Source of the DNA: an uncultured Dysosmobacter sp.
GTDB taxonomy: Bacteria > Bacillota > Clostridia > Oscillospirales > Oscillospiraceae
Direction of reading: 5' to 3'
Length of the DNA: 64,000 nt
Assembly (NCBI RefSeq): GCF_947631165.1
Contig: NZ_CANRKH010000016.1
Location: forward strand, 1-64,000
Shown here piece after piece: positions 16,936 to 64,000 of the stretch (within the stretch, counting starts at the first letter, position 1; each line of letters opens with the position of its first letter). The position numbers were made by a program, and so were the translations under genes. The notes under the pieces were generated by a model. It did no database searches. It was given only the letters and a program-made list of their open reading frames with translations, and was not told where the DNA came from.

Positions 16936-16998
16936 AAGCCCCGGCGCTCTTCCGCGGCAGTTTTTGACAGAGGTATTTTTCCCCGGCCTGCACAAACT

Positions 16999-17180
16999 AT
17001 AGTCGACACACTTGAAAAGAAGCAAAACTTCTTTTCAAACCATCGGCGCATGCGCCGATGGTGGCCGCAAAGCGGCCTAAGTGTCTTCTTCATAGTCAAC
17101 GCCCACGGGCTTTGCCCGTCCAGCGGGTATGCCCGCTGGTTGAAAATCTGCTTTTGCTGATTTTCAAGTGCGTTGACTAT
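16999..17180. repeat. paired three-hairpin repeat, full copy (ATAGTCAA family)
   Basis: This 182 bp element consists of two inverted halves. The left half runs: end motif ATAGTCGAC, hairpin 1 (TTGAAAAGAAG/CTTCTTTTCAA, 17012-17038), hairpin 2 (17040-17061), hairpin 3 GGCCGCAAAGCGGCC (17063-17077). After a central CATAGTCAACGC the right half has the reverse order: ACGGGCTTTGCCCGT (17105-17119), CCAGCGGGTATGCCCGCTGG (17120-17139), a TTGAAAATC/GATTTTCAA hairpin (17140-17167), and end motif GCGTTGACTAT. The half-units differ in sequence but keep every stem. Copies lie at 62318 and 63814. Confidence 0.75.
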
Positions 17181-17222
17181 ATGCTCACCCGCGGCGCGGG
17201 AAAAGATGCGGAGGGGATGCGG

Positions 17223-19351: not shown

Positions 19352-19530
19352 AAAGCATGATAGAGGCGCGAATGTCAAGAGTACTTCTCCCCACACGGAC
19401 AGGCACCGGGGAGCAGGAAAGGGGCCTTCGCCGAGGCTGCGCTCTTCCGCCTGTGGGGCGCGCTGCCGGGCTGTGGGAGAATATCCCATGGACTGTCGCC
19501 CTGAGAGGGGCGGAGCGCTGTCGTGGGTCC
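19352..19530 (+). promoter_or_regulatory. lysine riboswitch (L box)
   Basis: The conserved blocks of the lysine aptamer are in order: GATAGAGGCGCGA (19359), AAGAGTA, the AAAGGGGCCTTCGCCGAGGC stem-loop, CTGTGGGAGAATATCCCATGGACTGTCGC, and GGGGCGGAGCGCT at the end. A strong terminator hairpin follows 20 nt later and then the transporter gene. By analogy with known L boxes, lysine binding should promote termination. The identification is by motif order, not by covariance search. Confidence 0.88.
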
Positions 19531-52136: not shown

Positions 52137-52168
52137 ATGAGCGCCAGCCAAAACGGCTGGCGCTCATG
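52137..52168 (+). terminator. terminator of the 3D-domain gene, first of two identical copies
   Basis: ATGAGCGCCAGCC-AAAAC-GGCTGGCGCTCAT. The same 32 bp recur at 52370-52401. Confidence 0.75.
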
Positions 52169-52172
52169 AGAC

Positions 52173-52364
52173 TGTCGAAAAAGTGGCTATGCCACTTTTT
52201 CGAGAAAGCTACGGCCTGCCGCAGCGCACTCGCTGTCCGCCTGGGCGGACAACTCGCACGTTTGCAGGCCGAGATGTGTTTTTTCCGACGTACACGCCGC
52301 CGGAAAAAACAGATCAAAATTCTTTCGCGCCTGCGGGCGCGAACTCTGCGAGACTTTTTCGACA
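52173..52364. repeat. ~190 bp palindromic element between duplicated terminators
   Basis: TGTCGAAAAAGT (52173-52184) and ACTTTTTCGACA (52353-52364) are exact 12 bp terminal inverted repeats. Inside lie nested stems: GAAAAAGTGG/CCACTTTTTC, CGGCCTGC/GCAGGCCG enclosing GTCCGCC/GGCGGAC, TTTTTTCCG/CGGAAAAAA, and TCGCGCC/GGGCGCGA. It has no ORF of note, resembling a miniature inverted-repeat element. Confidence 0.65.
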
Positions 52365-52369
52365 AACTG

Positions 52370-52401
52370 ATGAGCGCCAGCCAAAACGGCTGGCGCTCAT
52401 G
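52370..52401 (-). terminator. terminator of the HAD gene, second identical copy
   Basis: Exact copy of the hairpin at 52137-52168, here just past the stop of the converging minus-strand gene. Confidence 0.75.
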
Positions 52402-62226: not shown

Positions 62227-62317
62227 TGTTTTTTTGGCGGAAAAATTTTGACGATGGAGAAAATTTTTCTGAAACCATGGAGGAAGGCTGGACATTTGCG
62301 GCGGCAGCGGGTATGAT

Positions 62318-62398
62318 ATAGTCAATTCGCTTAAGAAACACAAACGGTTTTTCAAGCGGGCTGCGCCGCTTTGTGCGGAGTACACGGTTATTGGCTAT
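62318..62398. repeat. three-hairpin repeat, single unit (ATAGTCAA family)
   Basis: ATAGTCAAT, an AT-rich hairpin (CTTAAGAAAC/GGTTTTTCAAG), a GCGGGC/GCCGC hairpin and a degraded third stem, ending ATTGGCTAT. It matches one half of the paired copies at 16999 and 63814, and lies in the glmM leader. Confidence 0.65.
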
Positions 62399-62447
62399 GA
62401 TAAGGAGTTTTTCCAATAGATCTTAAATATGACAGTGGAGTGACGAT

Positions 62448-63812
62448 ATGGGTAAATATTTTGGTACAGACGGTTTTCGCGGCAAGGCGGGAGAGGGACT
62501 GACCGCCGCCCACGCTTATGAGATCGGCCGTTTTTTGGGCTGGTACTACGGCCGCGCCCAGCGGGCGCAGATCGTGGTGGGAAAGGATACCCGCCGGTCC
62601 AGCTATATGCTGGAATACGCTATCAGCGCGGGCATGGCTTCCTCCGGCGCGGACGTGTATCTGCTGCATGTGACCACCACGCCCTCGGTTTCTTATGTGA
62701 CCCGGACCGACGGCTTTGACTGCGGCGTGATGATCTCCGCCAGCCACAATCCCTTCTACGACAACGGCATCAAGCTGATGAACCGGGAAGGGGAAAAGAT
62801 GGACGAGGCCACCATCCGCCTGGTAGAGGACTATCTGGATGGGAAGCTGGAATTGGACGGCCAGCCCTGGAAGGAGCTGCCTCTGGCCACTGGAGAGGAT
62901 GTGGGCGCCATCGTGGACCACAGCGCTGGACGGAACCGGTACATTGGATATCTGATCTCCCTGGCCATGTACTCCTTCAAGGGAAAGAAGGTGGCGCTGG
63001 ACTGCGCCAACGGCAGCGCCTGGAGCATCGCCCCCAGCGTGTTCAAGGCATTGGGCGCCGAGGTGCGGGTCATCAACGACAGCCCTGACGGATTGAACAT
63101 CAACCGGGACGCCGGATCGACCCACATCGACGGCCTGCGGCAATACGTGCGGGAAAACCACATGGACGCGGGATTTGCCTTTGACGGCGACGCGGACCGC
63201 TGTCTGGCTGTGGACGAGAACGGCGAGCTGGTGGACGGCGACAAGATCATGTACATCTACGGCCTTTACATGAAGGAGCGGGGCAAGCTGGTGAACAACA
63301 CCGTGGTCACCACGGTGATGAGCAACTTTGGCCTGTACAAAGCCTTGGATGAGGCGGACATTGGCTACGTCAAGACCGCCGTGGGCGACAAGTACGTCTA
63401 TGAGTACATGGTCCAGCACGGCAACCGCATCGGCGGCGAGCAGTCCGGCCACATCATCTTCTCCAAGTATGCCCGGACCGGTGACGGTATCCTTACCGCG
63501 CTGAAGGTGATGGAGGTCATGCTGGCCAAGAAGCTGCCCCTGAGCCGTCTGGCGGAGCCGGTGACCATCTATCCTCAGGTGCTCATCAACGCCCGGGTGC
63601 GGGACAAGAAAGAAGCCCAGGAGGACCCGGCGGTACGGGCTGCGGTGCAGGCCGTGGCCGACGAGCTGGGCGGCACCGGCCGTATTCTGGTGCGGGAGTC
63701 CGGCACGGAGCCGCTGGTGCGGGTCATGGTGGAGGCGGAGACCCAGGAGCGCTGCCAGACGCTGGCGGAGCGGGTCGTGGCCGTCATTCGGGAACAGGGC
63801 CACATGGCCTGA
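62448..63812 (+). CDS. glmM: phosphoglucosamine mutase
   Basis: Interconverts glucosamine 6-phosphate and 1-phosphate for peptidoglycan precursor synthesis. The 454-residue protein has the phosphoserine loop MISASHNPFYDNGIKLM, the magnesium loop FAFDGDADRCLAVD, the sugar loop GGEQSGHIIF and the phosphate-binding RESGTEPLVRVMVE. The N-terminal MGKYFGTDGFRGKAGEGLTA is typical. GGAGTGACG precedes the ATG. Its leader contains a three-hairpin repeat and its 3' end is followed at once by another. Confidence 0.96.
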   Translation: MGKYFGTDGFRGKAGEGLTAAHAYEIGRFLGWYYGRAQRAQIVVGKDTRRSSYMLEYAISAGMASSGADVYLLHVTTTPSVSYVTRTDGFDCGVMISASHNPFYDNGIKLMNREGEKMDEATIRLVEDYLDGKLELDGQPWKELPLATGEDVGAIVDHSAGRNRYIGYLISLAMYSFKGKKVALDCANGSAWSIAPSVFKALGAEVRVINDSPDGLNINRDAGSTHIDGLRQYVRENHMDAGFAFDGDADRCLAVDENGELVDGDKIMYIYGLYMKERGKLVNNTVVTTVMSNFGLYKALDEADIGYVKTAVGDKYVYEYMVQHGNRIGGEQSGHIIFSKYARTGDGILTALKVMEVMLAKKLPLSRLAEPVTIYPQVLINARVRDKKEAQEDPAVRAAVQAVADELGGTGRILVRESGTEPLVRVMVEAETQERCQTLAERVVAVIREQGHMA

Positions 63813-63813
63813 T

Positions 63814-64000
63814 ATAGTCAATTGACTTTAAAAATCGCAAGTGATTTTTAAAGCGGGCTATGCCCGCTGCGCACAAAGTGCACAGTCATTGACTATGAAA
63901 TCTAAATCAAGGCCGCATCCCGCGGCCTGTCACAGCGCATATGTGCTGTGACACTTGAAAAGTGGGTTTACCACTTTTTAAGTTATTTGATTATAGTTGA
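63814..64000. repeat. paired three-hairpin repeat, cut by the window end (ATAGTCAA family)
   Basis: Left half: ATAGTCAAT, hairpin TTTAAAAATC/GATTTTTAAA, AGCGGGCTATGCCCGCT, GCGCACAAAGTGCAC, ATTGACTAT (63888-63896). Right half in reverse order: AGGCCGC/GCGGCCT, GTCACAGC/GCTGTGAC, CTTGAAAAGTGG/CCACTTTTTAAG, then TTTGATTATAG at the window edge. Its stems share positions but not sequence with the copy at 16999. Confidence 0.75.

Follow-up and report, generated by a model that had tools for sequence, protein, structure and literature searches.

In Streptococcus pneumoniae, the RUP repeat is associated with IS630, resembles a MITE and adopts a fold in which its ends are paired (PMC3049150). The Correia elements (CREE) of Neisseria measure up to ~156 bp between 26-bp inverted repeats and occur in many intergenic copies (PMC3049150). 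BOX of Streptococcus pneumoniae is a small mobile repeat built of modules, and its extensive secondary structure takes in its ends (PMC3049150). The REPIN or BIME repeats, which are moved by RAYT transposases, comprise an inverted pair of structured units and are likewise intergenic and numerous. IS630 elements use TA targets, and their transposases, of the DDE type, are generally taken to work on DNA in double-stranded form. The ends of Correia elements begin with TATAG and their target is also TA. Y1 elements have neither terminal inverted repeats nor target duplication.

The element described here was found in a 64,000-nucleotide stretch of DNA from an uncultured Dysosmobacter sp., referred to as the window. 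Like RUP with its partner IS630-Spn1, it is a small intergenic repeat with IS630-type ends, a proposed movement in trans and a tight fold (PMC3049150). RUP is set apart by its description and length as a simple 107-bp AT-rich unit, whereas the present element comprises two three-armed cloverleaves in ~183 bp, exhibits strong covariation and belongs to the Oscillospiraceae. BOX differs in that its ends resemble ISSpn2 and its boxA, boxB and boxC modules vary in number, whereas here two inverted cloverleaves form a constant pair and the ends are of the IS630 type. REPINs lack terminal TA inverted repeats and their mover is a Y1 enzyme, whereas the ends of the present element are of the DDE (IS630) kind. 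The end sequence of Correia elements diverges beyond TATAG, and we know of no covarying double cloverleaf for that family. Hairpins maintained by template switching resemble the present stems in their simultaneous compensatory changes and loop inversions; the parts of that account drawn on here concern microRNA and rRNA genes and name no bacterial MITE family (PMC8794818). A literature search, with most subscription papers outside its coverage, found no description of this repeat family. The kind of element is already known from RUP and Correia, and the strongly covarying pair of three-armed cloverleaves appears to be a novel form of it.

The cloverleaf element in the window

The copies in the window and their parts, with the two cloverleaves labelled CL1 and CL2, are as follows.

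16998–17181, minus strand: complete element, 184 bp including the TA at both ends, CL1 on the minus strand
17092–17180, minus strand: cloverleaf CL1 of this element
17092–17102/17170–17180: CL1 closing stem
17105–17119: CL1 short arm
17120–17139: CL1 GC arm
17140–17167: CL1 AT-rich arm
17086–17091, minus strand: linker TTCTTC (GAAGAA on the minus strand)
16998–17085, minus strand: cloverleaf CL2 of this element
17005–17009/17081–17085: CL2 closing stem
17012–17038: CL2 AT-rich arm
17039–17062: CL2 GC arm
17063–17077: CL2 short arm
63813–63995, plus strand: complete element, 183 bp
63814–63896, plus strand: CL1 of this element
63897–63995, plus strand: CL2 of this element, with a GGCCGC arm, a GTCACAGC arm and an AT-rich arm
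62317–62420, plus strand: degenerate lone CL1, CL2 lost

A short linker joins the two halves of the element, which are three-armed cloverleaves inverted relative to each other, and each cloverleaf has its own closing stem. In the copy at 16998–17181 these stems are ATAGTCAACGC/GCGTTGACTAT for CL1 and GACAC/GTGTC for CL2, and the linker GAAGAA lies within an internal motif, CTATGAAG, that is kept across copies. The two inverted half-units that the sequence-only reading had described at 16999–17180, each with an end motif and an AT-rich, a GC and a short hairpin, are present; the closing stem of each half was overlooked. Of its two further half-units, both are related to the element. The one at 62318 is decayed, being a degenerate first half, and the one at 63814 is half of the complete element at 63813–63995, whose second cloverleaf had escaped notice.

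Covariance model R1 (window), with E-values that come from a short calibration, scored the copy at 16998–17181 at 96.4 bits (E 6e-21, minus strand), the copy at 63813–63995 at 198 bits (E 8e-45) and the remnant at 62317–62420 at 37.2 bits (E 4e-7). The predicted RNA fold of 16999–17180 has an energy of -100.6 kcal/mol, compared with -51.5 +/- 4.1 for shuffled sequences (z = -12). The 63814 half-unit also folds more stably than its shuffles (z = -6.8), and the decayed half-unit at 62318 reaches a z of only -2.4. The complete element at 63813–63995 begins with the base that directly follows the stop codon of a glmM-like gene and precedes a terminator-like hairpin. The remnant lies upstream of this glmM-like gene of the phosphoglucomutase/phosphomannomutase family (Pfam), which starts at 62448.

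The outer ends read TATAGTC...GACTATA in nearly all complete copies, and the sequence outside them is unrelated from copy to copy. In one of the strands, pairing joins the invariant ATAG of the left end to an internal CTAT and the GAC of the right end to an internal GTC, and the fold thereby brings both ends to the short GAA linker. This end-to-internal pairing and the overall architecture are kept across very different subfamilies; the pairing favours some role of the fold.

The window also contains a second hairpin-rich repeat at 52137–52401 on the minus strand, with a core of ~183 bp and without TATAGTC ends; it occurs about 9 or 10 times in the host. A terminator-like palindrome of 32 bp borders it on each side in the window, the two palindrome copies being identical, and terminator-like palindromes also adjoin two of the other copies of this repeat. 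A weak match of model R1 at 52162–52335 belongs to this different repeat and was rejected as a cloverleaf element.

Dispersal, target sites and IS630 ends

A strict pattern of both ends found 13 copies in the host genome, most of them then with a second cloverleaf. A covariance model built from 12 complete copies placed the element at ~40 distinct sites in the host at E ~1e-3 or better, a lower bound since 150 of the 1425 first-look candidates were scored. Full-length matches in the host extend over 183 positions with E down to 1e-43. The search that the sequence-only reading had proposed yielded further genomes with copies as well, and the high copy number that it had named as a test is borne out by the dispersed host copies. 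Two main types are seen in the host, with a CL1 of 89 bp and of 83–85 bp, respectively. Some copies consist of a solo CL1 (L002, L005), and CL2 has been lost in another (L165). Three copies at unrelated sites (L138, L140 and L141) differ by a few bases, which indicates recent spread.

Carriers number 19 of 119 genomes, mostly draft or metagenome assemblies, namely the host and 18 of 118 relatives. All fall in the host's genus-level group of the Oscillospiraceae. Carriers with names in the genome collection are, among others, an uncultured Dysosmobacter, Oscillibacter sp. 1-3 and further Oscillospiraceae. A carrier genome may have up to 20 or more copies, and many close relatives have none, so that the distribution is patchy. 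The exact two-end pattern, applied to 60 relatives, yielded isolated matches beyond the host, and their interiors were unrelated; it was judged too strict because the covariance model found copies in 18 of the 118 relatives. Among 80 viral stretches searched, of 87 found with the end pattern, two carry the element (L428, 1840–2022; L436, 932–1116). The copy in L428 sits exactly between the tail-sheath and tail-tube genes, directly after a stop codon, and phages may therefore spread the cloverleaf element. Searches of named phage and plasmid collections for the element gave no match.

Comparison with orthologous sites argues for insertion into TA, with duplication of that target. One empty site is exact to the base: host locus L145 reads GCCGTT-TA...TA-CACC, and the corresponding site in genome G072 reads GCCGTT-TA-CAC. 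Two further host copies (L163 and L142) compared with empty sites are consistent with a 2-bp target, with small differences. The element that follows glmM in the window is missing in four genomes (G006, G007, G020 and G021). Genomes G065 and G034 have identical insertions with identical flanks in common at two places (L244/L260 and L249/L262), as expected of inherited insertions. Among 92 insertions, TGA stands beside the CL1 end in 24 and AAA beside the CL2 end in 20; the oriented context TGA|TA|AAA may reflect a preferred target or an insertion complex that is itself oriented.

At ~183 bp the element is non-coding and too short for a transposase gene. Elements with a transposase and similar ends were found elsewhere. 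Locus L083 encodes an intact 280-aa IS630-family transposase (NF033545, 135.5 bits with a cut-off of 100; PF13358 and PF01710), and the right end of its element is TATAGTCAACAAACTTGAAAAG. An IS630 relic of 938 bp at locus L134 has ends of the TATAGTC kind on both sides, and these ends are identical to each other at 19 of 22 positions. In genome G031, from the host's genus-level group, a somewhat decayed IS630 copy of 878 bp has the ends TATAGTAAAACCAGTTGAAAAA and TATAGTTACCACAGTTGAAAAG, the latter agreeing with the element ends at 17 to 22 of 26 bases. Since the IS630 ends match the element ends, the terminal repeat includes TTGAAAA, the outer strand of the AT-rich arm. In L134 (4391–5328) several small GC-rich repeats of the CCTGCCGGC type break the transposase frame; they resemble insertions of a further small repeat. 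The IS630 copies inspected in G033, G034, G074 and G065 lack TATAGTC-type ends and are not the obvious movers. A complete matching IS630 element was sought in the host draft assembly (94% complete) and none was found, just an IS630 fragment with other ends; an autonomous partner in the same genome is not strictly required because partners can be lost.

Further MITE-like repeats (L021, L033, L038, L109, L110, L042, L122 and others) from gut and termite-gut Clostridia have TATAGTC......ACTTGAAAA ends around other interiors. The ends therefore define a broader superfamily.

Site and end comparisons demonstrate, at the level of sequence, the mobility of the element, its TA target and its tie to IS630 ends; as judged from them, it is a mobile element and not an RNA gene. 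A mobile element had been among the options of the sequence-only reading and was right in kind: copies are present in relatives, empty orthologous sites have the TA target, and the terminal repeats are held in common with IS630-family insertion sequences.

Covariation and the level of its upkeep

MAFFT misaligns arms 2 and 3 across subfamilies, and a covariance-model alignment was therefore used. Covariation was assessed with a home-made, R-scape-like test, in which Fitch changes were randomised over the branches of a FastTree tree and the statistic was a G-test with average-product correction. With 48 sequences and structure pairs alone tested, 9 of 64 structure pairs were significant; with 95 sequences the number rose to 28 of 64. 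When all column pairs of the 95 sequences were tested, 14 were significant and all 14 lay inside the structure. Changes on both sides of a pair fell on the same branch 244 times, compared with 74 expected, and 204 of these 244 double changes replaced one Watson-Crick pair by another. The closing stems covary like the arms. In a sequence-only alignment of 24 copies, changes on both sides were seen at 25 of 40 predicted pairs, so that the covariation is not solely a product of the fitted alignment. The claim that the stems keep pairing while their letters change therefore holds across copies.

That such change must mean selection on a folded RNA is not supported. In a functional RNA G.U pairs should be tolerated and A.C mismatches should not, and the strand should matter. 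Among stem mismatches flanked by good pairs, the home-made count of G.U to A.C was 37:53 and 67:51, and an alignment-free scan of the element gave 35:44. A ratio of 214:128 from a wide alignment seemed inflated by misaligned columns and was set aside; restriction to well-flanked mismatches reduced it to 67:51. Lysine riboswitches from the same and related genomes, a small control put through the same scan, gave 22:9 compared with 55:59 for the element. A member of this control family (RF00168, 96.5 bits) lies in the window at 19353–19528. Insertions have no orientation bias relative to transcription, as gene ends were counted 46 times at the CL1 side and 43 times at the CL2 side by a rough open-frame criterion. 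In Rfam, no family reached the gathering threshold and none was convincing at a permissive threshold.

Loops between copies of the same arm are sometimes exact reverse complements, as in CGGT-ATCT-ACCG and CGGT-AGAT-ACCG in G065. Without A/T runs, such inversions occur in 8 of 251 pairs compared with 177 of 18722 control pairs, a modest excess (p = 0.003) that weakens to p = 0.047 once A/T runs are included. Monttinen et al. (2022, PMC8794818) describe loop inversion and simultaneous compensatory change as marks of hairpin template switching. The strand-symmetric pairing, the unbiased orientation and the loop inversions point to upkeep of the stems at the DNA level, by hairpin template switching or by a need for a single-stranded DNA fold, and not to selection on RNA. 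Selection on a single-stranded DNA shape, which the sequence-only reading had named beside RNA, may be at work, but template switching in palindromes, a mutational process, accounts for the same pattern.

Alternative explanations and significance

The best explanation, to which we assign a probability of about 0.82, is a non-autonomous MITE of the IS630 / Tc1-mariner kind that is moved in trans and whose stems are re-paired at the DNA level. An IS630-family transposase provided in trans would recognise the ~20-bp ends, TATAGTC......ACTTGAAAA or close variants, and would move the element into TA, which would be duplicated, mostly between genes. Renewal of the pairing at the DNA level would leave the stems paired despite changes of letters. 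The likeliest route would be template switching between hairpin arms while the element is single-stranded in replication, perhaps with help from selection for copies whose folding keeps them out of the way. We infer the trans-mobilisation by an IS630 transposase, and likewise the upkeep by template switching, with or without selection on a single-stranded fold.

An IS630-type MITE may instead require its folded single strand, with selection preserving the shape of a single-stranded DNA or a cruciform. The extruded double cloverleaf might, for instance, serve the transposase or a host factor, or folding might allow replication to pass over the element harmlessly. The architecture kept across very different subfamilies, the covariation of closing stems as well as arms, the pairing of end bases with invariant internal bases that unites both ends, and a strand symmetry that fits DNA all agree with this explanation. 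It is nevertheless possible rather than likely, as DDE transposases of the IS630 family need just double-stranded ends (textbook knowledge), as template switching explains the stems without selection, and as MITEs with the same ends and other interiors exist (L033, L109 and L110), so that movement in general does not depend on the double cloverleaf. The stricter proposition that the double cloverleaf is a selected, functional single-stranded DNA or cruciform, and that movement or harmless passage of replication depends on uniting the ends, is doubtful; if true, it would be a structure-dependent transposon, which is not described for the IS630 family.

A transcribed structured RNA, acting in 3' end processing, stability or regulation and selected for its RNA fold, would agree with the significant covariation, the strong predicted RNA fold, and the position of some copies directly after stop codons, one of them ahead of its gene's terminator-like hairpin. 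It is improbable in view of the equal frequency of G.U and A.C mismatches, the unbiased orientation relative to genes, the lack of an Rfam match, the patchy presence and the empty orthologous sites; the processing or termination role raised by the sequence-only reading is disfavoured on the first three of these grounds. The inverted pair of structured units and the many intergenic copies also recall single-stranded mobile elements of the REPIN or IS200/IS605 sort, whose mover is a Y1 (HUH) transposase. Such a mover is very improbable, because the element has terminal inverted repeats and a TA target and the same ends occur on IS630 (DDE) elements. Unrelated intrinsic terminators that resemble each other by chance would account for GC hairpins between genes, and one AT-rich arm scores as terminator-like. 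This last explanation deserves almost no credence: it is refuted by the full-length matches over 183 positions, and the ends are held in common and a separate terminator-like hairpin lies beyond the element at glmM.

The element brings to light an abundant family of mobile repeats in a major group of gut bacteria, and near-identical copies in some genomes suggest recent activity. It also presents a clear case where strong covariation does not imply a functional RNA, although a covariation test alone would call it a structured RNA. The more than 100 hairpin sets form a natural data set for asking whether compensatory change arises by selection or by template switching, and the same data set could ask whether a DDE-type MITE needs its fold.
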